Below are positions 1 through 12,408 of a DNA stretch of 12,408 bases, in pieces. Made by a program: the position numbers and the translations under genes. Each line of letters opens with the position of its first letter. The stretch's first letter is position 1. This DNA is from Actinomycetes bacterium (lineage in GTDB: Bacteria; Actinomycetota; Acidimicrobiia; Acidimicrobiales; RAAP-2), in contig JAJZYE010000009.1 of the NCBI GenBank assembly GCA_021806055.1, positions 1-12,408 on the forward strand. Direction: 5' to 3'. The notes beneath the pieces are model-generated. The model made no database searches, was not told where the DNA came from, and saw only the letters and a list, made by a program, of their open reading frames with translations.

Positions 1-588
1 GCCGCCATGGGGCTGGCGGCCCTCTTCCTCTTCCTCTCTGCGCGCAGCAGCTCGGCGAGCGGGACCACGCAGCTGGTCCTCTTCGGATCGATCTTCACGG
101 TGAGCCCGTCCACCCTCCCCGAGGTGTCGTGGCTGAGCGGTGCCGTGCTGGTGACGCTCGCGGTCGTGGCGCGGCCGCTGCTGCTCAGCTCGCTCAGCGT
201 CGAGCTGGCGGCGGCCCGGGGCGTGCGCCTGCGGGCGGTGGGCCTGATCTTCATGGTGGTGCTGGCGGTCGCGGTTGGCCTGTCGGCCATCGTCATCGGC
301 GCGATCCTCTCCACGGCTCTGCTGATCGGCCCGCCCGCGAGCGCCCTGCGCGTGGCGCGTCGGGTAGGTCGCGCGGTCGCCCTCGCGGCGGGGCTGGGCG
401 TACTGGCCACGTGGGTCGGCGTGCTGTTCGCCTACGACAGCTACTACTGGTTCCCGTCGCACCGCAGCCTGCCCGTCAGCTTCTTCGTGGTCGCCGCGAT
501 CGTGGTGGAGTACCTCGTCGCCAGCCTCGCGCGACGGCGCACTCGCGCCGCGACCGTCGCGGTCCCCGAGGCGCAGGAGTGGATGTAG
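1..588 (+). CDS. Metal-ion ABC transporter permease (ABC-3 family), 5' truncated
   Basis: This is an integral-membrane permease subunit of a binding-protein-dependent ABC importer of the ZnuB/MntB/TroC (ABC-3) type, which carries zinc, manganese or iron across the cytoplasmic membrane. The reading frame is open from the first base, so the true start lies outside the window and the ATG at 7 is internal. The visible 195 codons give several hydrophobic segments. They include the family signature near the third quarter, seen as IVIGAILSTALLIGPPASA, which matches the usual G-x-LL...LLI-x-PAA pattern. The motif SVELAAARGV before it matches the conserved cytoplasmic loop before the later helices. 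The C-terminus is charged and ends at TAG 586-588. A second permease follows with a one-base overlap, so the two probably form a heterodimeric channel. The ATPase and binding protein are not in view. The metal cannot be told from sequence. Family call is firm, substrate is not. Confidence 0.88.
   Translation, partial: AAMGLAALFLFLSARSSSASGTTQLVLFGSIFTVSPSTLPEVSWLSGAVLVTLAVVARPLLLSSLSVELAAARGVRLRAVGLIFMVVLAVAVGLSAIVIGAILSTALLIGPPASALRVARRVGRAVALAAGLGVLATWVGVLFAYDSYYWFPSHRSLPVSFFVVAAIVVEYLVASLARRRTRAATVAVPEAQEWM
575..579 (+). promoter_or_regulatory. Ribosome binding site of second permease
   Basis: AGGAG lies 8 bases before GTG 588 and inside the end of the first permease gene. It decides the start of the second permease over the alternative GTG at 579 and ATG at 603. 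Confidence 0.6.
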
Positions 589-1388
589 TGTTCTCGAGCT
601 TCATGACCAACGCCTGGATCAGCGGGACCATCGTGGCGGTGCTGGCCGGGGCGGTCGGGTTCTTCGTGGTGCTGCGCGGTGCGTCGTTCGCGGCCCACGC
701 CATCCCCAATGGTGCCTTCGCCGGCGCCGCGGGGGCGTACCTGGTCGGGATCAGCCCGCTGGTGGGCCTGGTCTCCTTCGCCCTGCTCTCCGCGCTGGGG
801 ATCGGGGTGACCAGCCGGCGCACGCGCAACGACGTCGCGACGGCCCTGTCGCTGGTCGCGATGCTGGCCCTGGGTGCGGCGTTCCTCTCGGTGAGCCTGA
901 TCTACGAGCCGGCGATCAATGCCCTGCTCTTCGGCGAGATCCTCGGTGTCTCGTCCAGCCAGCTGATGCCCGTGCTGGCGCTCGGCGGGGGCAGCGTCAT
1001 CGTGCTGGCGTGGTTCTACCGCCCCCTGGTGTACACGTCGGTCGCCCCCGAGCTCGCGCGCTCGCGCGGGGTCAACGCCACCGTGGTCGACGTGGCGTTT
1101 CTGGTGGTCGTGGCGCTGGCCACCGCGCTGACGGTGCCCGTGGTCGGGGCGCTGCTGACGTTCTCGCTCATGATTGGGCCGCCGGCCGCCGCGCGGATCC
1201 TGGTGGCGCGCCCGGGTTGGGCGGTGGCGGGTTCGGTCGGTCTCTCCCTGGTGACCGTCTGGGTGTCGATCGGCGCGTCCTACGCCCTCAACCTGCCCAT
1301 TGGGTTCTTCGTAGGCGCCCTGGGCGCCGTCTTCTACCTCGGTGCGCGCGTCGTCGCGCGACACCGGGTCACCCGTGCGGCTACGTAA
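588..1388 (+). CDS. Metal-ion ABC transporter permease (ABC-3 family), second subunit
   Basis: This is a complete 266-residue permease of the same ABC-3 (ZnuB/MntB-like) family as the preceding gene, close to the usual family length. Hydrophobic segments occur near residues 10-29, 42-73, 85-105, 125-146, 167-198, 211-230 and 236-254. Family landmarks are the loop ALLFGEILGVSS (112-123), APELARSRGV (153-162) and the signature GALLTFSLMIGPPAAA (187-202). I chose GTG 588 because AGGAG at 575-579 lies 8 bases upstream and the start overlaps the last base of the previous TAG. The next in-frame ATG at 603 is too far from that site, and the much longer upstream frame only runs antiparallel-free through the neighbour in another phase. 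It probably pairs with the first permease as a heterodimer. A zinc, manganese or iron specificity cannot be chosen without the binding protein. Confidence 0.9.
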   Translation: MFSSFMTNAWISGTIVAVLAGAVGFFVVLRGASFAAHAIPNGAFAGAAGAYLVGISPLVGLVSFALLSALGIGVTSRRTRNDVATALSLVAMLALGAAFLSVSLIYEPAINALLFGEILGVSSSQLMPVLALGGGSVIVLAWFYRPLVYTSVAPELARSRGVNATVVDVAFLVVVALATALTVPVVGALLTFSLMIGPPAAARILVARPGWAVAGSVGLSLVTVWVSIGASYALNLPIGFFVGALGAVFYLGARVVARHRVTRAAT

Positions 1389-1391
1389 CCT
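1386..1391 (+). promoter_or_regulatory. Possible -10 element for leaderless tilS transcript
   Basis: TAACCT fits the actinobacterial TAnnnT -10 pattern. It ends 7 bases before ATG 1399, the spacing expected if transcription begins at the start codon itself. The first three bases are also the stop codon of the upstream permease. No convincing -35 element is visible, so this is a tentative reading supported by similar spacing at two other starts in the window. Confidence 0.3.
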
Positions 1392-1398
1392 ACAGGGG

Positions 1399-2277
1399 AT
1401 GGACCGGGTACGGCTCGTGCAGACGTGTCACTTCCCGGCGACGGGCGTGGTGGACCTCGCGGTGTCGGGCGGTCCGGACTCGCTCGGGCTGCTGCTGCTG
1501 GCGCGCGAGGCAGGGCTGGCGGTGCGGGTGCACCACGTCGACCATCACGCCCGGCCCACCAGCACGGACGACGCGCTCTTCGTGCGCGAGCTGTGCGCAG
1601 CGCTCGCGGTGCCCTGCGAGGTGCACGACGTGCGTGTGGCGCCGGGGCCCAACTTCGAGGCCCGGGCCCGCGCGGCGCGTCGCGCGGTGCTGCCGCCCAC
1701 GGCGCTGACCGGCCACACGATGGACGACGTGGCCGAGACGATCGTGCTCAACCTGTTGCGCGGCGCCGGACTGGACGGACTCTCCCCGATGATCGGCGAT
1801 CCGACCAAGCCGCTGGTGGACGTGCGCCGCGCCGACCTGCACGCCTACGTCGCGGCGTCGGGGCTGGTGGCGCGCCACGACGAGACGAACGACAGCCCGC
1901 ACCACCTTCGCAATCGGGTGCGCCACGAGGTGCTGCCCCTGTTGGACGCGGTCAGCGGGCGCGACGTGGTGCCGGTGCTGGCGCGCCAGGCCGGCCTGGC
2001 GCGTGACGAGCGACGGTGGCTCGACGAGCTGGTCGGGTCGGACGATCGGCCCCTGGGCGACGTGGACTGCCGCGAGCTGCGCGCGTGGCCGGTGGCCCGC
2101 CTGCGGCGGTGGCTGCGGGTGCGGCTGCGCTCGCGCGACCAGGGCGACGGCTCCCACCCGCCGTCCTTTGACGAGATCGAGCGCGTGATCGGAGTCGTGC
2201 GCGGCGAGAGTGTCGCCACCGAGCTCGCCGGGGGACGGCGGGTCGCTCGGCGCGACCAGCGACTCCGGGAAGAGTAA
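1399..2277 (+). CDS. tilS: tRNA(Ile)-lysidine synthetase TilS
   Basis: TilS ligates lysine to C34 of the CAU-anticodon tRNA(Ile2), with ATP, so that it reads AUA instead of AUG. The 292-residue product has the N-type ATP pyrophosphatase P-loop SGGPDS at 23-28, then HHVDHHARP (45-53). The TilS motif TGHTMDDVAETIVLNLLRGA (104-123) follows, and RNRVRHEVLPLL (171-182) shows the tRNA-contacting region. The protein is short, like other actinobacterial TilS, and lacks the large C-terminal domain of the E. coli enzyme. The stretch between residues 88 and 104 also looks several residues shorter than usual. ATG 1399 puts the P-loop at the expected distance from the N-terminus. AGGGG directly abuts the ATG and is too close to act as a normal ribosome site, so a leaderless start is plausible. 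An upstream GTG at 1375 is the alternative. tilS next to hpt is the standard actinobacterial order. Confidence 0.93.
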   Translation: MDRVRLVQTCHFPATGVVDLAVSGGPDSLGLLLLAREAGLAVRVHHVDHHARPTSTDDALFVRELCAALAVPCEVHDVRVAPGPNFEARARAARRAVLPPTALTGHTMDDVAETIVLNLLRGAGLDGLSPMIGDPTKPLVDVRRADLHAYVAASGLVARHDETNDSPHHLRNRVRHEVLPLLDAVSGRDVVPVLARQAGLARDERRWLDELVGSDDRPLGDVDCRELRAWPVARLRRWLRVRLRSRDQGDGSHPPSFDEIERVIGVVRGESVATELAGGRRVARRDQRLREE

Positions 2278-2283
2278 CGCCAC

Positions 2284-2289
2284 TACGCT
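2284..2289 (+). promoter_or_regulatory. Possible -10 element for leaderless hpt transcript
   Basis: TACGCT matches TAnnnT and ends 8 bases before ATG 2298. No Shine-Dalgarno sequence is visible in the 20 bases between the tilS stop and this ATG, which supports a leaderless start. No clear -35 is present. This is inference from position and pattern only. Confidence 0.35.
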
Positions 2290-2297
2290 GACCAGAC

Positions 2298-2867
2298 ATG
2301 GACAGTGATCGTTCGCCCGACGTGACGCGGCACTGGGCGGCTCACGACCTCGGTGACATAGTGGTCTCCGCGCAGGACGTGCGCGAGAAGGTGCGCGACC
2401 TCGGTGCGCAGATCACGCGGGACTACGCCACTCACCCCCCACTCCTCGTCTGCGTGCTGAAGGGCGCCGTCAACTTCGTGTCGGACCTGATGCGCGCGAT
2501 CGAGTTGCCGGTGGAGGTGGACTTCATGGCGGTGTCCTCCTACGGTGCGGCGACCAAGACGAGCGGTGTCGTGCGCATCGTCAAGGACCTGGACGTCGAC
2601 CTGGTGGACCGCGACGTCTTGATCGTCGAGGATGTCGTCGACTCGGGACTGACCCTGCACTACCTGCGTCAGTACCTGGGGGCACGCAGCCCGCGCAGCC
2701 TCGAGGTCTGCGCGCTGCTGCTCAAGGCCGGGGAGCAGCGCGTGGAGCAGGACCTCAAGTACGTCGGGTTCACGATCCCCTCGGACTTCGTCGTGGGCTA
2801 CGGCCTGGACGTCAACGAGCGCTACCGCAACCTCGACGCGATCTATACGTTCGTCGGGGAGGCGTAG
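2298..2867 (+). CDS. hpt: Hypoxanthine phosphoribosyltransferase
   Basis: Hpt is a cytoplasmic purine salvage enzyme that joins hypoxanthine or guanine to PRPP, giving IMP or GMP and pyrophosphate. The 189-residue protein is of normal family length. It shows VLKGAVNF (53-60), the flexible-loop SSYG (80-83) and the PRPP-binding loop VLIVEDVVDSGLTL (107-120), with the acidic pair E111-D112. The purine-binding region IPSDFVVGYGLDVNERYRNL (160-179) contains the D and F/V contacts of the family. The gene lies 20 bases after tilS and ends in TAG directly followed by the folE GTG. In mycobacteria and many other actinobacteria ftsH lies between hpt and folE; here it is absent. The start at ATG 2298 lacks a ribosome site, and a -10-like TACGCT sits just upstream. 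Identity is firm. Confidence 0.96.
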   Translation: MDSDRSPDVTRHWAAHDLGDIVVSAQDVREKVRDLGAQITRDYATHPPLLVCVLKGAVNFVSDLMRAIELPVEVDFMAVSSYGAATKTSGVVRIVKDLDVDLVDRDVLIVEDVVDSGLTLHYLRQYLGARSPRSLEVCALLLKAGEQRVEQDLKYVGFTIPSDFVVGYGLDVNERYRNLDAIYTFVGEA

Positions 2868-3449
2868 GTGGTCGATCGAGACCGCGTGCAGGCCCTCGTG
2901 CGCGAGTTGCTCGACGCTATCGGGGAGGATCCCGAACGTGAAGGACTCGTGGACACGCCGCGCCGCGTCGCCGAGATGTACGTCGAGCTCTTCGAGGGGC
3001 TCGAGGTGGACCCCGGGGCGCACCTGCGCGTCACCTTCGAGTCCGATCACGACGAGATGGTGATGGTGCGCGACATCCCCTTCACGACACTGTGCGAGCA
3101 CCACCTGGTGCCCTTCACGGGCGTGGCCCACGTGGCCTACCTGCCGGGTCCGCAGGGGCGCGTGACCGGCCTGTCGAAGATGGCACGGCTCGTGGAGGGC
3201 TACGCGCGCCGTCTCCAGGTCCAGGAGCGCATGACGACCCAGATCGTTGACGCCATGGAGCGCGAGCTGCACCCCAAGGGCACGATCGTGGTGCTCGAGG
3301 CGGAGCACTTCTGCATGTCGATGCGCGGCGTGAAGAAGGAGGGGACCACCACGGTCACCTCGGCCGTGCGGGGCGTCTTTCGCGATGACCCGCTCTACCG
3401 CGCCGAGGCGCTGCAGTACATCCACCAGCGGCGGTCGACGTGGCGCTGA
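2868..3449 (+). CDS. folE: GTP cyclohydrolase I FolE
   Basis: FolE opens the folate pathway by converting GTP to 7,8-dihydroneopterin triphosphate and formate, using a zinc-bound water in a homodecamer. The 193-residue product is of typical length. Zinc-ligand motifs are intact: LCEHHLVPF has C76 and H79, and EHFCMSMRG has C149. The N-terminal [10 protein letters not shown] (29-38) and the core motif [10 protein letters not shown] (101-110) are characteristic, and the Zn-dependent FolE-I rather than FolE2 type is clear. GTG 2868 directly follows the hpt TAG, and GGGGAGG at 2856-2862 lies 5 bases upstream inside hpt. The 3' end overlaps folP by 10 bases. The product needs removal of pyrophosphate and phosphate before FolB, and no recognised enzyme for that is in this operon. 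Confidence 0.96.
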
Positions 3450-4240
3450 GCCCGGGCGTGATGGGCATCATCAATGTGACGCCGGACTCCTTCTTCCCCG
3501 ACTCGCGCGTTGCGACCGCGGCGGCGGCGATCGCGCGGGGTCGCGCGTACTTCGAGGCCGGTTGCGACCTGGTCGATGTGGGTGGCGAGTCGACGCGTCC
3601 GGGCGCGTCGCCGGTACCCGCCTCGGACGAGGTGGCCCGCGTGCGCACCGTCATCGAGGAGCTGGCGGGCGTGGGGCCGGTGTCGGTGGACACCCAGAAG
3701 GAGAGCGTGGCGCGCGCGGCGGTGGCCGCCGGGGCCACGGTGATCAACGACGTGTCGGGCTCGCTGGTCGAGCTGGCCGGCGAGCTCGGCGTGGGCTACG
3801 TGGCGATGCACCGGCGCGGTGAGCGGATCGCGCCTGACGAGAGGCCCGTCTACGACGACGTCGTGGGAGAGGTGCGCGCGTACCTGCGCGCCGCCGCCGA
3901 GCGGGCTCGCGCCGCGGACGTGGGCCCGCTGTGGCTCGACCCGGGCATCGGCTTCAACAAGGGCGTGGCTCACAACCTGGCCCTGCTGGGTGCGTGTACG
4001 GCGCTGGCCGAGCTCGCCGGCGAGTACGGGGCGGGCCTGCTGATCGGCACCAGTCGCAAGCGCTTCCTGGCCCACCTGGGTCGTGAGGTGCTCGACGTAG
4101 AGCAGCGCCTCGAGGGATCGCTCGCCACCGCGGCGTGGGCGCTGGTCAACGGGGCGACGATGGTGCGCGTGCACGACGTGCCCGCTGCGGTGCAGCTGCG
4201 TGAACTGCTGGCGCGGCCGCTCGACGAGGTGGCCGCGTGA
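3440..4240 (+). CDS. folP: Dihydropteroate synthase FolP
   Basis: FolP condenses 6-hydroxymethyl-dihydropterin diphosphate with p-aminobenzoate to form dihydropteroate and is the target of sulfonamides. The 266-residue TIM-barrel enzyme has all main motifs. These are [13 protein letters not shown] (9-21), [14 protein letters not shown] (46-59), SVDTQ (82-86), INDVSG (102-107), MHRRG (123-127), [10 protein letters not shown] (166-175) and IGTSRKRF (202-209). The S-R-K of the last motif binds the pterin diphosphate and pABA region. The loop after MH lacks the MQG of E. coli, but mycobacterial FolP1 also diverges there. GTG 3440 overlaps the end of folE by 10 bases and has only a weak ribosome site, which suggests translational coupling. 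The stop overlaps the next gene as GTGA. I see no insertion that would mark a sulfonamide-resistant Sul enzyme. Confidence 0.96.
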
Positions 4241-4737
4241 AGGGCCGGTGGGCGTCGGGCATCGAGCCGCGGGGCTTCACGTGGGTCTACCGAGGGATCC
4301 TGGCCGTGTCGGAGCGCCCCGGCGGCTCGACCACCGTGCACCGGCGCGTTCGTCGCGACGAGGAGCTGTTGTGGCTCGCGCACCAGGGCTTTACGCGCGT
4401 CATCTCAATCCTGCCCGACATGCAGAACGTCACGGCGTACCTTGAGCACGGACTCGACGTGCGTCACTACGCCCTCCGTGGCGGCCCCCAGCAGCGTGAG
4501 GTGCTCGCGTCGTGCTACCGGGACCTGGCGGACTCCATGGCTCGCAACGCCACCGTGCTCCTGCACGGGGATGACGTGTCGGACCGCCTGCTCGGCGTCG
4601 TGGCCGGCTATCTGGTGTGGTCCGGCCGGGTGGAGACCGCGCCGGCGTCGCTGGCTCTCGTCGAGCGTCTCTTTCGACGCTCGGTGGGCCCCGAGGGCCG
4701 CACCGTGCTGCTCGACCTGCCCGAGTCATCGTCGTGA
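4237..4737 (+). CDS. Protein-tyrosine/dual-specificity phosphatase-like protein lacking the catalytic cysteine
   Basis: This 166-residue protein resembles small dual-specificity phosphatases. It has GFTWVYRGILAVSERPG (13-29), a helix beginning RRDEELLWLAHQG (39-51), the strand RVISIL (54-59), then Y68 and a GLDVRHYAL strand (72-80). Next comes a phosphate-loop-like HGDDVSDR (110-117) and the helix LLGVVAGYLVWSG (118-130). The loop matches H-C-x5-R exactly in spacing, with H110 and R117 kept, but glycine (codon GGG at 4567-4569) stands where the catalytic cysteine belongs. The only cysteine is C93. The loop after HYAL reads RGGP with no evident general-acid aspartate. It is therefore predicted to be unable to use cysteine-phosphatase chemistry. 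GTG 4237 has GAGG 7 bases upstream and overlaps the folP stop as GTGA; the 3' end overlaps folB the same way. Its place within the folate operon suggests a pterin-related role, but the function is unknown. The fold assignment is by eye. Confidence 0.75.
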   Translation: MKGRWASGIEPRGFTWVYRGILAVSERPGGSTTVHRRVRRDEELLWLAHQGFTRVISILPDMQNVTAYLEHGLDVRHYALRGGPQQREVLASCYRDLADSMARNATVLLHGDDVSDRLLGVVAGYLVWSGRVETAPASLALVERLFRRSVGPEGRTVLLDLPESSS

Positions 4738-5096
4738 ACGTGATCGAGGTTCGCGGGCTGCGCTGCTCGTGCGTGGTCGGTGCGCTGGCGCACGAGCGTG
4801 AGGCGCGCCAGCCGCTCGAGTTCGACGTGGACCTGGAGCGGTCCTTCGCCGCGGCGGCGCGTGACGACGACCTGACGGCGACGACGAACTACGCGCGGGT
4901 CACGTCCCTCGTGGTCGCGGTCGCCACCGAGGGGCGTTTCGTGCTGCTCGAGACCCTGGCCCAGCGCGTCGGCGAGCGCCTGCTCGAGCTCGACCCCGCC
5001 ATCGAGTCGGTCGTGGTCGCGGTACGCAAGCTACGCCCGCCGGTCGAGGAGGACGTGGCCACCGTCGGTGTGCGCTGTCGGGTGGCGCGCGTGTGA
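4734..5096 (+). CDS. folB: Dihydroneopterin aldolase FolB
   Basis: FolB cleaves 7,8-dihydroneopterin to 6-hydroxymethyl-7,8-dihydropterin and glycolaldehyde. The 120-residue length is normal. Features seen are the N-terminal VIEVRGLRCSCVVG (3-16), where aldolases usually begin with I-x-I-x-x-L-x-x-x-x-x-x-G, and the ERE-x-RQP motif (21-27) followed by FDVDL. NYARV (52-56) contains the family tyrosine, LLETLAQRVG (71-80) the substrate-binding glutamate E73, and VVVAVRKLRPPVEE (93-106) the catalytic lysine K99. The start at GTG 4734 overlaps the previous TGA as GTGA and gives the expected N-terminus; a much earlier GTG-like frame start would run into the neighbour in another phase. No ribosome site is obvious, so translation probably depends on coupling. 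The stop overlaps folK in the same way. Confidence 0.93.
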   Translation: MNVIEVRGLRCSCVVGALAHEREARQPLEFDVDLERSFAAAARDDDLTATTNYARVTSLVVAVATEGRFVLLETLAQRVGERLLELDPAIESVVVAVRKLRPPVEEDVATVGVRCRVARV

Positions 5097-5563
5097 GACG
5101 CCGGGCGTATCTGTCGCTCGGCTCGAACATGGGCGATCGGGGGGCCTTCCTGGCGACCGGTGTCGCGATGGTCCCCGGCGGCGACCGGTCGCGCACCTCG
5201 CTCGTCTACGAGACCGGGCCGGTCGGTGGCGTTCCCCAGGACGACTTCTGGAACCTGGTGCTCGAGCTCGAGACGGAGGCGTCACCGCGCGATCTCCTGG
5301 ATCGCGCGCGCGCGGCGGAGCGGGCCTGCGGGCGGACCCGCGAGGTGCGCTGGGGTCCGCGCACGCTCGACGTCGACGTGTTGCTGGTCGGCGACCTGGT
5401 GAGCGATGATCCCGAGATCCTGGTGCCCCACCCACGCCTCTGGGAGCGCGCGTTCGTGCTGGTGCCCCTGCGCGAGCTGGCGCCCGACCTGGTCAGCGAG
5501 GCGCAGGTGCGCGCGGCGCGCGGACGCGTGGCGCCACTGGGTACACTCGAGTCAGTGCGGTAG
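5093..5563 (+). CDS. folK: 2-amino-4-hydroxy-6-hydroxymethyldihydropteridine pyrophosphokinase FolK
   Basis: FolK transfers pyrophosphate from ATP to 6-hydroxymethyl-7,8-dihydropterin, producing the substrate of FolP. The 156-residue protein has the classic signatures LSLGSNMGDR (7-16), VYETGPVGGVPQDDFWN (38-54) and RWGPRTLDVDVLL (86-98). Magnesium-binding aspartates are D93 and D95. The C-terminal ILVPHP...R...FVLVPLRELAP (109-131) is also present. GTG 5093 overlaps the folB TGA as GTGA. Downstream there is a 40-base gap before the DUF2520 gene, the first non-overlapping junction since tilS/hpt. So folK probably closes the folate operon in the strict sense, although read-through into the next block is likely. 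Confidence 0.95.
   Translation: MRRRAYLSLGSNMGDRGAFLATGVAMVPGGDRSRTSLVYETGPVGGVPQDDFWNLVLELETEASPRDLLDRARAAERACGRTREVRWGPRTLDVDVLLVGDLVSDDPEILVPHPRLWERAFVLVPLRELAPDLVSEAQVRAARGRVAPLGTLESVR
5542..5547 (+). promoter_or_regulatory. Possible -10 element before the DUF2520-panC-coaX-lysS block
   Basis: TACACT near the 3' end of folK fits TAnnnT and is identical to the candidate -10 of clpC. It would start transcription near 5554, leaving a leader of about 50 bases before ATG 5604. GGTAC at 5540-5544 and GTACC at 5563-5567 form a short inverted repeat around it. No -35 match is visible and the evidence is weak. Confidence 0.22.
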
Positions 5564-5593
5564 TACCGAACGGCACCCCTGGCGGGCCGGAAC

Positions 5594-5597
5594 GGAG
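5594..5597 (+). promoter_or_regulatory. Ribosome binding site of the DUF2520 gene
   Basis: GGAG lies 6 bases upstream of ATG 5604 in the 40-base gap after folK, and it fixes the start. The longer open frame reaching back to 5406 lies inside folK in another phase and is not coding there. Confidence 0.6.
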
Positions 5598-5603
5598 ACT
5601 CTC

Positions 5604-6320
5604 ATGAACATCACCATTGTCGGCGCGGGTCGCGCGGGCAGTTCCTTCGCGCTGGCGCTGTCGCGCGCCGGGCACCGGGTGGATCTGGTTCACCACGATG
5701 ACGCCATCGCGCTCGACGACGCGCGGGTCGTCCTGCTGTGCGTACCCGACGGCGAGGTGGCCGCTACGGCGGCGGGACTGGCGCCGTCGGCCTCGCGGGT
5801 CGTGGCCCACGTCGCGGGATCCGTGACGCTCGCGGCGCTGGCCGGTCACCCCCGGGTGGCGTCGCTGCACCCGCTCGTGCCCCTGCCGACGGCCGAGCGG
5901 GGGGCGTCGCGACTGGTGGGCGCCACCTACTGTGTCGCGGGAGACCCCGTCGCCGCGCAGCTGGTGGCGTCGCTCGGTGGTCGCACCCTGACCCTGGCCG
6001 ACGGCCAGCGCGCCCTGTACCACGCCACCGCCGCGGTGGCGGCGAACCATCTGGTGGTCCTGATGGCTCAGGTGCGTGACCTCGCCGAGGCCGCCGGGCT
6101 GGACCTGGACGACTTCCTGCCCCTCGCGCGTCTGGCTTTGGAGGACGTGGCCGATCTCGGACCGACGGCGGCGCTGACCGGACCGGCCTCGCGCGGGGAC
6201 GTGGCGACCATCGACGCGCACCTGGCGGCCATGCCCGCCTCGCAGCGCGCGACCTACGTCGCACTGGCGCGCGCGGCGTTCGACGTCGCCGAGCGCCAGC
6301 GGGTGCGTACCCCTGCGTGA
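5604..6320 (+). CDS. Rossmann-fold DUF2520 protein, possible oxidoreductase of pantothenate synthesis
   Basis: The 238-residue protein has an N-terminal dinucleotide-binding Rossmann motif (ITIVGAGRAG, residues 3-12), a strand ending VVLLCVPDGEV (42-52) and VASLHPLVPLP (85-95). A helical C-terminal domain carries RALYHATAAVAANHLVVLMA (136-155) and ALTGPASRGD (190-199), hallmarks of the Rossmann-like/DUF2520 family (COG5495 type). These are predicted NAD(P)-dependent oxidoreductases related in layout to 6-phosphogluconate and ketopantoate reductases. The gene overlaps panC as GTGA, and M. tuberculosis has a comparable gene (Rv3603c) before panC. No panE is in the window. I recall that an alternative ketopantoate reductase, PanG, was described next to panC-panD in Francisella; whether this protein is of that group I cannot tell. 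Family call is firm, reaction is inference. Confidence 0.85.
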   Translation: MNITIVGAGRAGSSFALALSRAGHRVDLVHHDDAIALDDARVVLLCVPDGEVAATAAGLAPSASRVVAHVAGSVTLAALAGHPRVASLHPLVPLPTAERGASRLVGATYCVAGDPVAAQLVASLGGRTLTLADGQRALYHATAAVAANHLVVLMAQVRDLAEAAGLDLDDFLPLARLALEDVADLGPTAALTGPASRGDVATIDAHLAAMPASQRATYVALARAAFDVAERQRVRTPA

Positions 6321-7174
6321 AGTCGATCACGTCGATTGACGGGTGGCGCGCCTACTGCGAGGACGTGCGTCGCGCCGGTGGCCGGGTGGGTCTGGTGGCG
6401 ACGATGGGGGCGCTGCACGACGGACACGCGTCGCTCTTCGAGCGCGCGCGACGCGACGGCACCGTGGTGGTGGCGACCATCTTCGTGAACCCGCGTCAGT
6501 TCGGTGACGACCACGACCTGCAGTCCTACCCGCGTACGCCGCGCGACGACCGCGCGACGGCCCGACGTCACGGGGTCGACTGCCTGGTGGAGCCGCGCCT
6601 CGACGAGATGTGGCCGGACTACCCCCGACCCACCGCGACCACGGTGAGCGTGCGCGGGGTGGCCGACGGCTACGAGGGTGCCGGGCGCCCGGGGCACTTC
6701 GACGGGGTGGCCAGCGTCGTCGCGAAACTGCTGGCGATCACCGGGCCCTGCGCGGCGTACTTCGGGGAGAAGGACTTCCAGCAGGTCGCGGTGGTGCGCG
6801 CGATGGTGCGCGACCTCGGTTTCGCGGCGACGGTGGTGGCGTGTCCCATCGTGCGCGAACCCGACGGGCTGGCCCTGTCGAGTCGCAACCGCCGATTGAG
6901 CCCGCAGGGTCGCGAACGCGCGACCGCCCTGTCGCGGGCGCTGGCGCGCGCCGCCTCGGTGCCGGCGCCGGCCAGCGTCGTGCGTGCGACGCTGCGCGCG
7001 ACACTGGAGGAGGCCGGCGTGACGGTCGCCTACGCCGATGTCGTCGACCCGGCGCGCGTCGTCGCGTCGAGCGACGACGAGTCGGGCGAGCGGCGGGCGC
7101 TGGTGGCGGGCATAATCGACGGCGTGCGCCTGATCGACAATGGACCGGTCACGCTCGTGGCGCGGGAGGCGTGA
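6317..7174 (+). CDS. panC: Pantothenate synthetase PanC
   Basis: PanC makes pantothenate from pantoate and beta-alanine through a pantoyl-adenylate intermediate. The 285-residue protein shows the HIGH-like region TMGALHDGH (29-37), IFVNPRQF (55-62), RPGHFDGVASVV (124-135), YFGEKDFQQ (148-156) and PIVREPDGLALSSRN (177-191). The last includes the KMSKS-equivalent SSRN. The residue before T29 is alanine where proline is common, which is a mild difference. GTG 6317 overlaps the DUF2520 stop as GTGA. The stop at 7172-7174 shares a base with the coaX ATG. In mycobacteria panD lies between panC and coaX; it is absent here, so beta-alanine must come from elsewhere in the genome or from outside. Confidence 0.96.
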   Translation: MKSITSIDGWRAYCEDVRRAGGRVGLVATMGALHDGHASLFERARRDGTVVVATIFVNPRQFGDDHDLQSYPRTPRDDRATARRHGVDCLVEPRLDEMWPDYPRPTATTVSVRGVADGYEGAGRPGHFDGVASVVAKLLAITGPCAAYFGEKDFQQVAVVRAMVRDLGFAATVVACPIVREPDGLALSSRNRRLSPQGRERATALSRALARAASVPAPASVVRATLRATLEEAGVTVAYADVVDPARVVASSDDESGERRALVAGIIDGVRLIDNGPVTLVAREA

Positions 7175-8007
7175 TGCTGCTGGCGATCGACGTGGGCAAC
7201 ACCGAGACCGTGATTGGACTGTTCGGGACAGCGGGACCCGAGCAGCCCGACGCCATGGGCTTCGCGAGGGCGGTCGACGAGCGGGGCCTCGCGTTCCACT
7301 GGCGACTGTCCACCGTGCCCGAACGCACGCCGGACGAGCACGCCATGGTGCTCACTCAGCTCTTGGACCTCGAGGGGCTCGACCTGCGCGCGACGGTGCG
7401 CGCCATGGCGATCTCCTCCTCGGTGCCGACGGTGACGACCCAACTGCGGCGAATGGCCCACCGGTGGTTCGCCGACCTCGACGTGACGGTGCTGGGGCCC
7501 GGAACCAAGTCCGGTATGGCGATCCTCTACGACAACCCCCGCGAGGTCGGAGCCGACCGGATCGCCAACTCGGTGGGTGCCTACGACCTCTATCCCGGTG
7601 CCTCGATCGTGGTGGACCTGGGTACGGCCACGACCTTCGACGTCATCAGCGAACGTGGTGAGTACCTGGGTGGCGCCATCGCCCCGGGAGTGGCGATCTC
7701 CCTCGAGGCGCTCTTCACCCACGCCTCGGCGCTGCGCTCGGTCGAGCTGGTGCGCCCGCGCTCGGTGATCGGGCGTTCCACGGTCGAGTCGATCCAGTCG
7801 GGCGTGCTGTACGGCTTCGCCGCGCAGGTGGACGGCATCGTGGAGCGCATCCGCGAGGAGCTGGGCCCCTCGACGGTCATCGCGACCGGGGGGCTGGCGG
7901 GGTTGATCGCGCCGCACACGCGCCACGTCGAGCACGTGGAGCCGTGGCTCACCCTGCACGGATTGCGTATCGTGCATGGACGCAACCATTCGGGAGACGA
8001 TCTGTGA
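7174..8007 (+). CDS. coaX: Type III pantothenate kinase CoaX
   Basis: CoaX phosphorylates pantothenate, the first step of coenzyme A synthesis, as a dimeric ASKHA-fold enzyme needing a monovalent cation. The 277-residue product has AIDVGNTETVIGLF (4-17) with the catalytic-site aspartate D6, NPREVGADRIAN (121-132), IVVDLGTATTFD (145-156), LGGAIAPG (165-172) and RSTVESIQSG (201-210). About 20 residues near 19-41 look longer than in typical CoaX proteins, between the first strand pair and the HWRL strand. Unlike M. tuberculosis CoaX, which as I recall has a changed DVRNT motif and is reported inactive, the nucleotide motifs here are canonical. ATG 7174 is preferred over the adjoining GTG 7171 because GGGAGG at 7164-7169 sits better in front of it. 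The 3' end overlaps lysS as GTGA. Confidence 0.95.
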   Translation: MLLAIDVGNTETVIGLFGTAGPEQPDAMGFARAVDERGLAFHWRLSTVPERTPDEHAMVLTQLLDLEGLDLRATVRAMAISSSVPTVTTQLRRMAHRWFADLDVTVLGPGTKSGMAILYDNPREVGADRIANSVGAYDLYPGASIVVDLGTATTFDVISERGEYLGGAIAPGVAISLEALFTHASALRSVELVRPRSVIGRSTVESIQSGVLYGFAAQVDGIVERIREELGPSTVIATGGLAGLIAPHTRHVEHVEPWLTLHGLRIVHGRNHSGDDL

Positions 8008-9455
8008 GCACGCCCTACTCCTTCGCCCACGGCGCCTACGCGCGCGACGTGCGCGCCACCTTCGACCACCTCGAAGCCGGCGAGGAGTCGGGGTCGATCG
8101 TGAGCGTGGCGGGCCGGGTGATGCTGCTGCGCACCCAGGGGCGCGTGGCGTTCGCGACGATGCGCGACTCGACCGGGGAGGTGCAGCTGTTCGCCCAGAC
8201 GGCGGGGACCGGGGACTTCGAGGGGTTCACCCACCTGCACCTCGGGGACTGGGTGGGCGTCACCGGCGAGGTCGTGCGCACGCGTCGCGGCGAGCTGTCG
8301 GTGAAGGTGGGGTCCTGGACTCGCCTGGCCGAGGCCCGGCGCAACTTCGGGGACAAGTGGGCGGGGATCGCCGACTACGACGTGCGCTACCGCCACCGCG
8401 AGGTCGACCTGTGGGCCAACGAGCGATCGCGCTCGTCCCTGGCGTTGCGTAGTGCCGTCCTGCGCGCGCTGCGCGAGCGGTGCTGGGCGGGGGGCTTCAT
8501 GGAGGTGGAGACCCCGATGCTCAACCCCATCGCGACCGGGGCCGCCGCGCGCCCCTTCGTGACGCACCACAACGCGTTCGACAGCGAGTTCTACCTGCGT
8601 ATCGCCCCCGAGCTCTGGCTCAAGCGTCTCGTGGTGGGGGGCTTCGAGCGCGTCTTCGAGTTGGGGCGGGTCTTTCGCAACGAGGGCGTGAGCCCGCGCC
8701 ACAACCCGGAGTTCACGTCGCTCGAGCTCTACAGCGCCTACTGGGACTACGAGGACATGATGGCCTTCACGGAGGAGCTCGTGGCGGGGGTGGTCCAGGA
8801 CGTGCTCGGCACCACCACCCTGACCTACCAGGGCCGTCCACTGTCGATGGCTCCGCCGTGGCCCCGCCGCCCGATGGCCGAGTTGGCCAGCGAGGCCGTG
8901 GGGGAGTCCGTCTCGGTGCACACGCCCCGCGAGCGTCTGGTGGCGCTGCTCGAGGACCGCGGTGTGGTGGCGTCACCGGCGTGGGGGCCGGGTCGGTGCC
9001 TGGCCGAGCTCTTCGAGTGCGCCGCGGAGTCCGCGCTGTGGGAGCCAGTCTTCGTGACCGACCATCCCGTCGAGGTCTCGCCACTGGCTCGGCGCCACCG
9101 CGGTGATCCCGAGCTGACCGAGCGCTTCGAGTCCTACGTGGCCGGCTGGGAGCTGTCCAACGGGTTCAGTGAGCTGAACGATCCCGAGGAGCAGCGGGTG
9201 CGCTTCGAGCAGCAGGCCGCGCTCGGCGCCGCCGGCGACGACGAGGCGATGAGCGTTGACGAGAACTACCTCGCCGCCCTCGAGTGGGGGTTGCCGCCGA
9301 CCGCGGGCCTCGGCGTGGGCGTCGACCGGCTGGCGATGATCGTGGCCGACGAGGCCAACATTCGCGAGGTGATCGCCTTTCCCACGCTCAAGCCGCTGCG
9401 CGAGGGAGCCGACGGCGAGGGCGCGCGCGGGTCCGAGAGGGCGAGTGGGGCCTAG
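8004..9455 (+). CDS. lysS: Lysyl-tRNA synthetase, class II
   Basis: LysS charges tRNA(Lys) with lysine in the cytoplasm. The 483-residue protein has an N-terminal OB-fold tRNA anticodon-binding domain with VSVAGRVMLLRTQGRVAF (33-50) and a class II catalytic core. Motif 1 is around FMEVETPML (165-173), followed by ARPFVTHHNAFDSEFYLRIA (182-201). Motif 2 is FERVFELGRVFRNEG with RHNPEFTSLE (214-241), and motif 3 is GLGVGVDRLAMI (435-446). The lysine-binding ELSNGFSELNDPEEQ is at 383-397. It is slightly shorter than the roughly 500 residues common in the family. GTG 8004 overlaps the coaX TGA as GTGA and has GGGAG at 7992-7996, 7 bases upstream. The C-terminal tail after LKPLRE is an acidic, glycine-rich extension of about 16 residues. 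The stop overlaps the stop of the opposing prenyl synthase gene. Confidence 0.96.
   Translation: MSTPYSFAHGAYARDVRATFDHLEAGEESGSIVSVAGRVMLLRTQGRVAFATMRDSTGEVQLFAQTAGTGDFEGFTHLHLGDWVGVTGEVVRTRRGELSVKVGSWTRLAEARRNFGDKWAGIADYDVRYRHREVDLWANERSRSSLALRSAVLRALRERCWAGGFMEVETPMLNPIATGAAARPFVTHHNAFDSEFYLRIAPELWLKRLVVGGFERVFELGRVFRNEGVSPRHNPEFTSLELYSAYWDYEDMMAFTEELVAGVVQDVLGTTTLTYQGRPLSMAPPWPRRPMAELASEAVGESVSVHTPRERLVALLEDRGVVASPAWGPGRCLAELFECAAESALWEPVFVTDHPVEVSPLARRHRGDPELTERFESYVAGWELSNGFSELNDPEEQRVRFEQQAALGAAGDDEAMSVDENYLAALEWGLPPTAGLGVGVDRLAMIVADEANIREVIAFPTLKPLREGADGEGARGSERASGA
9452..9455. other. Shared stop palindrome CTAG of convergent genes
   Basis: CTAG provides TAG 9453-9455 for lysS on the plus strand and, read on the minus strand, TAG 9454-9452 for the prenyl synthase. 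The two genes therefore overlap tail to tail by four bases. No intergenic terminator can lie between them, and none is obvious in the flanking coding sequence. Confidence 0.9.
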
Positions 9456-10429
9456 GAGGCGGGCAGGTCGTCGAGCAGCGACGTGATGAGCGCGCTGAAG
9501 CCCGCGCGCAGGCCCGGATCGGGCAGCACGTCCAGGGCCCCGTAGGCCAGATCAAGGAAACGCCGGGCCGCCGCGACGGTCTGGGCGACCGCGTTGGTGG
9601 CCACGACGAGCTTGCGGGCGCGTTCACGGTCCTCGTCGCCCAGGACCCGGCCGAGGAGGGTGCGCAACTCGTCGCCGACGGCCGGGTCGCGCAGGGCGAA
9701 GAGGGTGGGCAGGTTGTAGATCCCCTCGGCGAGGTCCTGGCCCGCGGGCTTGCCCAGCTGGTTCTCGACCGCGACGACGTCGAGGATGTCGTCGCGCAAC
9801 TGGTAGACCATGCCGAAGCAGCGGCCGAACTCGCTCAGCGCCTCGGTCTGGGCGTCGTCGTGGCCGGCGGTGATCGCGCCGATGCGACAGCTCGAGGCCA
9901 TCAGCGAGGCGGTCTTGCCCTCGATGGCCTCGTAGTAGTCCTCCTCGCTGCGCGCCACGGAGAACGCGGTGCGCACCTCGCTGGCCTGCCCGCGCGTCAG
10001 CCAGGCCAGGGTGTGCGCGAGCAGCCGGGCGGACTCGACTCCCAGGTCTGCGGCGATGCCGGCCGAGCGGGCCATGAGGTAGTCGCCAGCGACGATCGCC
10101 ACGAGGTTGCCGTAGCGGGCGTTCACGCTGTCGACGTTGCGTCGGACCATGGCCTCGTCCATGACGTCGTCGTGGTAGAGCGAGGCCAGGTGCATGAGCT
10201 CCACGGCGACGCCGCCCATCAGGTCGTTGGTCGTCGCGGGCCGGGTGCCGCCCGTGGCCGCCGCGAGCGCCAGCGTGGGCCGCAGACGCTTCCCGCCGGC
10301 GTAGATGAGGTGCGTGGTGACCGCGTCGAGGTAGGGATCGCCGATTACGACCGAGTCCGCCAGCAGGGTCTCGAGCCGAGCCAGGTCGGCGTCGATCGCG
10401 GGTAGGCGCAGCAACTCGAGCGGATTCAC
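9452..10429 (-). CDS. Polyprenyl diphosphate synthase (long-chain trans-prenyltransferase)
   Basis: This enzyme adds isopentenyl diphosphate units to an allylic primer to build an all-trans polyprenyl diphosphate, probably the menaquinone side chain. The 325-residue protein has GGKRLRP (45-51), the first aspartate-rich motif DDVMD (87-91) and the second DDILD (213-217). GQASEV (147-152) and EGKTASLM (170-177) are also typical. The residues 4 and 5 before the first aspartate motif are small (A, S), which in this family points to a longer product than farnesyl diphosphate; exact length cannot be read. GTG at 10429 is preferred to GTG at 10435 because AAGG lies 7 bases upstream of the former. 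The gene is divergent from clpC and convergent with lysS, and it stands alone on the minus strand. The neighbouring genes give no pathway clue. Confidence 0.92.
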   Translation of the reverse strand: MNPLELLRLPAIDADLARLETLLADSVVIGDPYLDAVTTHLIYAGGKRLRPTLALAAATGGTRPATTNDLMGGVAVELMHLASLYHDDVMDEAMVRRNVDSVNARYGNLVAIVAGDYLMARSAGIAADLGVESARLLAHTLAWLTRGQASEVRTAFSVARSEEDYYEAIEGKTASLMASSCRIGAITAGHDDAQTEALSEFGRCFGMVYQLRDDILDVVAVENQLGKPAGQDLAEGIYNLPTLFALRDPAVGDELRTLLGRVLGDEDRERARKLVVATNAVAQTVAAARRFLDLAYGALDVLPDPGLRAGFSALITSLLDDLPAS

Positions 10430-10435
10430 GCACAC

Positions 10436-10441
10436 ACCTTA
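10436..10441 (-). promoter_or_regulatory. Possible -10 or ribosome site of the prenyl synthase gene
   Basis: Read on the minus strand, TAAGGT precedes GTG 10429 by 6 bases. It can be read either as a TAnnnT -10 element for a leaderless transcript or as AAGG serving as a ribosome site. The sequence alone does not decide between them. Confidence 0.3.
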
Positions 10442-10488
10442 GAGGAGGAGGGTCGTCCGCCTCGGGGGTGGGGGCGATTACGGACGAC

Positions 10489-10498
10489 GTACCGGTAC
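10489..10498. promoter_or_regulatory. Perfect palindrome GTACCGGTAC in the divergent promoter region
   Basis: This 10-base perfect palindrome lies in the 101 bases between the prenyl synthase start and the clpC start. Its last three bases form part of the candidate clpC -10 hexamer. A site here could act as an operator for clpC or for both divergent genes. It does not resemble the HspR inverted repeat or the ClgR sites I know. Function is inference. Confidence 0.3.
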
Positions 10499-10501
10499 AC
10501 T
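10496..10501 (+). promoter_or_regulatory. Candidate -10 element of clpC
   Basis: TACACT fits TAnnnT and would start transcription near 10508, giving a leader of about 23 bases that carries the AAAGGG ribosome site at 10518-10523. No -35 close to TTGACA is found at 16-18 bases upstream. It is the best promoter candidate in this intergenic region. Confidence 0.4.
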
Positions 10502-10517
10502 GCTACTAGTCAGCCGA

Positions 10518-10523
10518 AAAGGG
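10518..10523 (+). promoter_or_regulatory. Ribosome binding site of clpC
   Basis: AAAGGG lies 7 bases before TTG 10531 and supports that rare start codon. The peptide from this TTG begins [12 protein letters not shown] after the initiator, the conserved N-terminus of actinobacterial ClpC. Confidence 0.55.
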
Positions 10524-10530
10524 ATGAGAG

Positions 10531-12408
10531 TTGTTCGAACGATTTACAGACCGTGCCCGACGAGTCCTGGTGCTCGCTCAGGAGGAGGCCCGTGACCTGA
10601 ATCACGCGTTCATCGGCACCGAGCACATCCTGCTCGGGCTGATTCGCGAGGGGGAAGGGGTTGCGGCGAAGGCTCTCGACGCCCTGGGGGTCACCTACGA
10701 CGTCGTGCGCGAGAAGGTGGAGGAGGCCATTGGCACCAACACCAACCCCTCACCCGGATCACCCCCCTTCACGCCCCGGGCGAAGAAGGTCTTGGAACTG
10801 TCGCTGCGCGAGGCCCTGCAACTGGGCCACTCCTACATCGGCACCGAGCACATGCTGCTCGGGCTGGTACGCGAGGGTGACGGTGTCGCGGCGCAGGTGC
10901 TGAACGACCTGGGCGCCGACATGGCGCGCGTGCGCGCGCAGGTCATCCAGATGATGTCGGGTCAGGGCACCAAGGAGACCGGATCGGCCGTCTCATCGGG
11001 CGGACCCAAGGGCGACGCGGACGCGTCGAGCGGGTCGGCGGTGCTCGACCAGTTCGGCCGCAACCTGACCCAGTACGCCCGCGAGGGCAAGCTGGACCCG
11101 CTGGTGGGTCGCGAGAAGGAAGTCGAGCGCGTGATGCAGGTCCTGTCGCGGCGCACCAAGAACAACCCGGTGCTCATCGGCGAGCCCGGCGTCGGCAAGA
11201 CCGCCATCGTCGAGGGCCTGGCCCAACGGATCGTGGCCAATCAGGTGCCGGTCACGCTGGCCGACAAGCAGCTCTACACGCTGGACCTCGGCGCGCTGGT
11301 CGCGGGCAGCCGCTACCGCGGCGACTTCGAGGAGCGCCTGAAGAAGGTACTGAAGGAGATCCGCACGCGCGGCGACATCATCTTGTTCATCGACGAGATC
11401 CACACGCTGGTCGGGGCCGGGGCCGCCGAGGGTGCCATCGACGCCGCGTCGATCCTCAAGCCCATGCTGGCCCGGGGCGAGCTGCAGACCGTGGGGGCGA
11501 CGACGATCGACGAGTACCGCAAGCACATCGAGAAGGACGCGGCGCTGGAGCGTCGTTTCCAGCCGGTGAAGGTCGAGCAGCCCTCGGTGGCCATGACCAT
11601 CGAGATCCTGAAGGGCTTGCGCGAGGTCTACGAGGAGTTCCACGCCGTCAAGATCACCGACCAGGCGCTGGTCGCCGCGGCCAACCTGGCTGATCGCTAC
11701 ATCGCCGATCGCTTCCTGCCCGACAAGGCCATCGACCTCATTGACGAGGCCGGGAGTCGCCTGCGCATTCGGCGCATGGACGCGCCGCCCGCCGCCGTGA
11801 AGATCGACGAGGACCTCGCCCGCGTGCGCGCCGACAAGGAGAGCGCGATGGACAGCGGCGCCCTCGAACAGGCCAAGGCCCTCGAGGAGCGCGAGCGCGA
11901 GCTGGTGGCCAAGAAGGAGGCCCTGGACGTGACGGTGGCCGCCTCGGGCGGCAGCACGTTCGATCTGGTCGACGAGGAGACGATCGCCGAGGTGCTGGCC
12001 AACTGGACCGGCATCCCGGTCTACCGGCTCACCGAGGAGGAGACGTCGAAGTTGCTGCGCATGGAGGACGAGCTCCACAAGCGCATCATCGGACAGGACG
12101 AGGCGATCATCGCGCTGAGCCGCGCGATTCGACGCACCCGCGCGGGGCTGAAGGACCCCAAGCGCCCCGGTGGGTCGTTCATCTTCCTCGGCCCCACGGG
12201 CGTGGGCAAGACGGAGTTGGCCAAGACGTTGGCGGAGTTCCTCTTCGACGACGAGGACGCCCTCATCCAGCTCGACATGAGCGAGTACATGGAGAAGCAC
12301 TCGGTGAGTCGTCTGGTGGGCTCGCCCCCCGGCTACGTCGGCTACGACGAGGGCGGCCAGTTGACCGAGGCGGTGCGCCGCAAGCCTTTCTCCGTGGTCC
12401 TCTTCGAC
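10531..12408 (+). CDS. clpC: ATP-dependent Clp protease ATP-binding subunit ClpC, 3' truncated
   Basis: ClpC is the hexameric AAA+ unfoldase that feeds substrates to ClpP. The visible 626 codons begin with two Clp N-terminal repeats (IGTEH at 28-32 and 103-107, 75 residues apart) and a glycine/serine-rich linker (about 143-168). The first AAA+ domain has Walker A GEPGVGKT (217-224) and Walker B IILFIDE (283-289). A short coiled middle segment rich in K/E/A (about 425-467) is of ClpC length, not the long ClpB type. The second AAA+ domain has Walker A GPTGVGKT (554-561) and the pore-loop GYVGYDEGG. The frame is open to the window end, with roughly 200 residues missing by family length. TTG 10531 is chosen because of AAAGGG upstream and the conserved N-terminus. 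In mycobacteria clpC1 also lies downstream of lysS. Confidence 0.97.
10612..10853 (+). repeat. Direct repeat encoding the two Clp N-terminal motifs
   Basis: The 17-base string ATCGGCACCGAGCACAT occurs at 10612-10628 and again at 10837-10853, with strong similarity continuing about 25 bases on. The copies are 225 bases (75 codons) apart and encode the two equivalent helices of the duplicated Clp N-domain. This is an internal domain duplication, not a mobile or regulatory repeat. Confidence 0.8.

Follow-up and report, generated by a model that had tools for sequence, protein, structure and literature searches.

What does a gene for a phosphatase-like protein do in the middle of a folate operon when the loop that should hold its catalytic cysteine has none? 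The question is raised by a 12,408-nucleotide stretch of DNA from a bacterium of the class Acidimicrobiia (contig JAJZYE010000009.1, positions 1 to 12,408; the whole stretch is called the window here), in which an unbroken open reading frame at 4237-4737 on the plus strand, starting with GTG, encodes a 166-amino-acid pseudophosphatase that we label PSP. The protein has the fold of a dual-specificity phosphatase (DSP) without the catalytic pair of the protein tyrosine phosphatases (PTPs). We consider it probable that PSP is a conserved, repurposed, non-catalytic DSP-fold protein with a binding or regulatory role, belonging to a housekeeping gene cluster and having a task other than folate synthesis. 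In the following, f1, f2, f3, f29 and f34 denote families, g113 a genus, and G and L numbers individual genomes and loci.

The dead PTP loop, at 4564-4587 on the plus strand, reads H110-G-D-D-V-S-D-R117, as a preliminary description of the locus had stated, with CAC (4564-4566) for His110, GGG (4567-4569) for the glycine at the place of the cysteine and CGC (4585-4587) for Arg117. None of 68 diverse class members has cysteine at position 111 in the class alignment (71 rows, less three that were partial). His110 is found in 68/68 rows, an acid at position 112 in 66/68 and an acid at position 116 in 68/68, but Arg117 is kept in only 41/68, and position 111 varies between R, G, Q, H, S and other residues. 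Beside 120 Thermoleophilia-type proteins, we compared 355 different full-loop sequences, taken from 265 loci and from the best 120 proteins of a protein search; six of them are Thermoleophilia-type loci (L117-L122) and the other 349 are taken as class members, and since the sequence sets overlap and include near relatives, their counts are not independent. His110 is present in all 355, the acid at 112 in 348, the acid at 116 in 352, arginine in 294 and cysteine in seven. Not one of the 355 combines cysteine and arginine in the HC-x5-R signature, nor were the two seen together among the 120 Thermoleophilia-type proteins: the place of the arginine is taken by lysine in L111 and by tryptophan in the other six cysteine-bearing sequences, which are the six Thermoleophilia-type loci.

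PTP catalysis needs both the cysteine and the arginine, and because no member was seen with both, phosphatase action by the PTP route is, judging from these sequences, very unlikely for PSP. The 68 cysteine-less rows together with the 355 sequences rule out a local loss or a sequencing error, the latter already thought unlikely in the preliminary description. That description had also held that a homologue with an intact cysteine in the same genomic place would point to a merely local loss. L111 (HCEEVSDK; genome G039, family f2), the only cysteine-bearing class member seen, does have the cysteine, but it lacks the arginine, and the 1.5 kb around it contain no fol gene. The check on G111 and R117 suggested there did not show them to be conserved, and G111 in particular is ruled out as a key residue by the variability of its position. 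The general-acid aspartate is absent from the window protein, as had been suspected, the loop before helix 3 reading RGGPQQRE. This loop varies in the class, where an acid slightly later is common (47/68 at position 85), and 115/120 Thermoleophilia-type proteins have D or E at position 82; loss of the general acid is therefore not certain for all class members.

The relation of PSP to the DSPs barely shows in single-sequence searches with the window protein, but profiles reveal it. No Pfam family, DSPc, Tc-R-P and PTP-SAK included, scored above its curated cut-off with the window PSP (the best, Tc-R-P, gave E 0.23 and 12.5 bits against 27), the best E among 67 members was 0.0038, for DSPc, and NCBIfam gave no match for the window protein. 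The best structured sequence relative, the DSP family protein in PDB entry 25xa, is matched by the single window sequence at E 0.044, but by a 67-row PSP profile at E 1.2e-11 and by a second profile (A2) at 5.4e-10; with the 67-row profile, HCRAGYGRTG of 25xa aligns onto the dead loop of PSP. A loop of the form L-A-x-S...P-G-G-S-G is common to both proteins. Predicted models and their fold matches place PSP in the DSP/PTP fold, in agreement with the DSP layout first read from the window sequence, and the model gives no sign of the non-phosphatase structure that would have spoken against it. With a phosphatase fold, catalytic residues gone and a gene that is intact and constrained, PSP has what defines a pseudophosphatase; by model and profile it would be a bacterial, class-wide one of DSP fold with a conserved replacement site.

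The gene is under strong constraint and is widespread, being found in almost all of the class, whose members live in soil and water. PSP is present in 276/296 genomes, mostly as a single copy, and even f29 assemblies as small as 0.6-1.1 Mb have it. Its ratio of nonsynonymous to synonymous substitution rates (dN/dS) against nine relatives is 0.06 to 0.21, below that of folP, folB and folK in 9/9 pairs, although the window sequence is a partner in every pair and dS is sometimes high, which makes the values a ranking and not a precise rate. In a tree of 84 rows, where many deep forks are weak, each of f1, f2, f29 and the Thermoleophilia type comes out as a single group, the pattern that inheritance by descent would give. 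The loss of the catalytic pair had been described as tolerated or selected; PSP is selected and not decaying, across the clade, which makes it a bacterial pseudophosphatase kept across a class at a lower dN/dS than the three real enzymes beside it. A second match in genome G196 (E 3.4e-4) was also seen; its locus, L072, has no tblastn match to the window PSP at 1e-4.

By its position PSP would be taken for a folate gene. Its GTG start (4237-4239) overlaps the folP stop (4238-4240) in a GTGA at 4237-4240, and a possible GTG start of folB at 4734 overlaps its TGA stop (4735-4737) in a GTGA at 4734-4737, both on the plus strand, so the coupling on both sides reported earlier for this intact gene is real. 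However, PSP and the folate pathway are not present and absent together. Four f3 genomes (G014, G134, G214 and G269, 97-99% complete) gave no PSP even by profile search, and the same profile found 37 class genomes in another search, again missing G014. All four f3 genomes have FolK and the order hpt-folE-folP-folB-folK, the matched FolP and FolB parts being no more than 96 bases apart, and f3 keeps tilS and hpt. Conversely, PSP is present in 22/22 f2 genomes, where each of the 13 loci inspected with long flanks has tilS directly before it and fol genes nowhere close, while FolK went undetected in 7/22. FolB was undetected in all seven of these FolK-less genomes and in 8/10 of those searched, G002 and G071 being the two that have it. 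Six f2 genomes (G157, with locus L320, G008, G031, G039, G202 and G217) keep PSP with FolP, FolB and FolK all undetected, and from their sequences they look like folate auxotrophs or users of another route; G157 is assembled as one 5.0 Mb contig, 99% complete.

The same separation is seen elsewhere. Genus g113 (family f34) has PSP in 6/6 genomes and FolK in 0/6, while three sister genera have FolK, and in its genome G129 (L331) the order is tilS, hpt, ftsH, PSP, DUF2520, panC, coaX, the fol genes around PSP being gone. One f29 locus (L063, G053) differs from most of those examined in that fol genes are absent within 1.5 kb of PSP. In six genomes of the Thermoleophilia type, folK is either on another contig than PSP (five genomes) or, in G368, 0.7 Mb away from it, and a gene for a 4HBT-type thioesterase, different from the conserved neighbours in Acidimicrobiia, is found up to about 1.2 kb upstream of PSP, on its strand, in 6/6 loci (L117-L122). 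Among these loci, the homologue at L118 (G368) is frameshifted, its two matches falling in adjacent frames, and the one at L122 (G378) has a TGA inside the match. Because f3 has the fol genes without PSP, six f2 genomes keep PSP with FolP, FolB and FolK undetected, and g113 keeps it without FolK, PSP is probably not a folate protein: its role would not be folate-specific, and the gene is kept where the folate genes have been lost, contrary to the folate tie first proposed. A place tightly inside an operon can thus mislead on function even when many families conserve it, and here lineages with lost folate genes and one with lost PSP argue against the obvious one.

If the old active site is dead, what has been conserved in its stead? 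A charged motif at residues 26-43 (4312-4365, plus strand; E26 R27 P G29 G30 ... H35 R36 ... R40 ... E43) stands out by conservation and secondary structure, helix 1 beginning at residue 36. E26, R27, G29, H35, R36, R40 and E43 keep the same residue class in at least 88% of both clades, Acidimicrobiia and the Thermoleophilia type. In DSP topology the equivalent segment adjoins the PTP loop. PSP is probably a repurposed DSP fold: it has lost the Cys-Arg pair on which PTP chemistry depends, and where the pocket used to be it would carry a new charged set made of His110, the acids at 112 and 116, and E26, R27, H35, R36, R40 and E43. A surface to which a partner protein or a ligand binds may then be formed by the motif, which is basic, together with the acids of the loop, and PSP would most likely act as a non-catalytic binding or regulatory protein, encoded in most of the class within a tilS-hpt-folE-folP-PSP-folB-folK-panC-coaX-lysS housekeeping cluster but with a task other than folate synthesis. 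That the charged set makes up a single site, and that this site binds rather than catalyses, we infer. Phosphate sensing or pterin-phosphate binding by the old P-loop, the latter proposed in the preliminary description, is unlikely, because the two conserved loop acids would repel phosphate and the phosphate-gripping arginine is not conserved. A metal site was considered and rejected, since H35 is not invariant, being S, P or A in all seven f29 rows. We also entertain, more tentatively and with some doubt, that the dead pocket was rebuilt as a new active or ligand-sensing site (E26/R27/H35/R36/R40/E43 with H110/D112/D116) in a core protein of the class, the rebuilding having taken place in a common ancestor of the Acidimicrobiia and Thermoleophilia forms or before a transfer between them; if so, the pocket would serve a chemistry or a signal not known for the PTP fold.

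Several observations weigh against a non-catalytic role outside folate synthesis. PSP lies beside fol genes in 80/80 closest named loci, as in the window and unlike f2 (0/13 loci), with folB behind it in 80 and folP before it in 79, the remaining one at a DNA end; these loci are near relatives, and the arrangement could mean a real though dispensable link. FolK is also undetected in 11 of the 20 PSP-less genomes, namely seven f29 genomes (70-88% complete), G028 (99% complete), G154, G174 and G274. The absence of FolP, which was undetected in six of the seven FolK-less f2 genomes and in 6/10 searched, comes from a search with one protein, weaker than the profiles used for FolB and FolK, and two of the four genomes positive in it were matched only in part. 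The meeting of the charged residues in space is deduced from topology. The first two points also feed the idea that PSP is a folate pseudophosphatase that aids the pathway, for example as a carrier or regulator, by binding either a Fol enzyme or a phosphorylated pterin. In many families PSP follows folP, the gap from one matched part to the other being 0-226 bases across 64 loci, and in the window it is translationally coupled. However, the co-absence of PSP and FolK, which includes 7/7 PSP-less f29 genomes, would also result from a missing contig or a block loss of the operon; it reflects linkage in place, and the dissociation stands. With that double dissociation (fol genes without PSP in f3, 4/4; PSP without FolP, FolB and FolK in six f2 genomes and without FolK in g113, 6/6), the separation of the Thermoleophilia-type gene from folK and its place near a thioesterase gene, and loop acids that would disfavour phosphate, we find the folate role rather improbable.

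The main rival to a binding or regulatory role is that PSP is an enzyme with a new, non-PTP chemistry, using the invariant histidine, the two loop acids and the Arg/Glu motif, perhaps with a metal. The conservation of the charged set in both clades is what an active site would show, and the dN/dS of PSP is below that of three true enzymes nearby. On the other hand, none of the matches listed in the family and fold searches was a relative with such chemistry, all seven f29 rows have another residue in place of H35, and His110 may have a structural part, as PTPs too retain a histidine ahead of the cysteine; we therefore regard this catalysis as unlikely. The probability that PSP instead helps a non-fol neighbour in the cluster, such as TilS, HPRT or FtsH, seems slight: in the absence of local fol genes PSP still stands behind tilS (the 13 f2 loci) or ftsH (L331), but a gene can stay where it was after a deletion without any functional link, f3 has tilS and hpt without PSP, and the Thermoleophilia-type homologues lie elsewhere, with the 4HBT gene upstream in 6/6 loci. 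That the gene is a decaying or neutral remnant carried in the operon is scarcely credible, for although its loss in f3 shows that it is dispensable, it persists in 276/296 genomes, even in the small f29 assemblies, its dN/dS is low in 9/9 pairs, and it is kept when its operon neighbours are lost. For the favoured binding or regulatory role, the lineages that kept and those that lost PSP provide a clean test set for comparison.

To our knowledge, pseudophosphatases have been described mainly in eukaryotes. Compared with DUSP23/VHZ and the archaeal-type small DSPs (Tk-PTP and the Sulfolobus PTP), PSP lacks the nucleophilic cysteine, does not conserve the arginine and, in the window protein, has no aspartate at the general-acid place, but it has the charged motif 26-43 and the acids in the loop. 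The entry 25xa, with its HCRAGYGRTG, is without the six residues that carry the HRxxR part of the PSP motif. Also comparable are PTPRU, the second domain of PTPRK and PHLPP2, which are reported to be phosphatase domains without activity, as is predicted for PSP; they are eukaryotic and of other subfamilies, unlike the bacterial PSP, and PHLPP2 we take to be of another fold. The PTPRK pseudophosphatase domain reportedly recruits a substrate. By title, no bacterial DSP-fold pseudophosphatase appears among the matches listed in the open-licence pseudophosphatase literature, and no description of the PSP family in that on bacterial, folate or actinobacterial pseudophosphatases or on folP/folB in Acidimicrobiia. 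Class-wide signature proteins of the Acidimicrobiia were sought starting from A. ferrooxidans (PMC5962788), which has no PSP, so that PSP could not surface among them. An antiphage role found no PADLOC match for the window PSP.

Among 176 loci with both genes, several from one genome, FolP and PSP share one open frame of 457 amino acids in a single case (L039:1185-2558, G107). An assembly frameshift is likelier than a fusion because the joint has a G-run and a GTGA, and the case was rejected as a Rosetta-stone fusion and not used as evidence; no PSP-FolB fusion occurs in 155 loci tested. The window cluster lies on the plus strand in the order tilS, hpt, folE, folP, PSP, folB, folK, a DUF2520 gene, panC, coaX and lysS, where tilS, hpt, coaX and lysS are names that we presume for the Pfam families or sequences found. 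A PP-loop gene of uncertain start at 1342-2277 (ATP_bind_3, E 7e-30), presumably tilS, is followed by an HPRT-like frame at 2298-2867 that we take to be hpt from its sequence. Next come folE (GTP cyclohydrolase I, 2868-3449, Pfam E 1e-73), folP (dihydropteroate synthase, 3440-4240, Pterin_bind E 7e-61) and, beyond PSP, folB (dihydroneopterin aldolase, 4734-5096, FolB E 5.5e-29, its start set at GTG 4734 from the sequence) and folK (HPPK, 5093-5563, E 1e-34 in Pfam).
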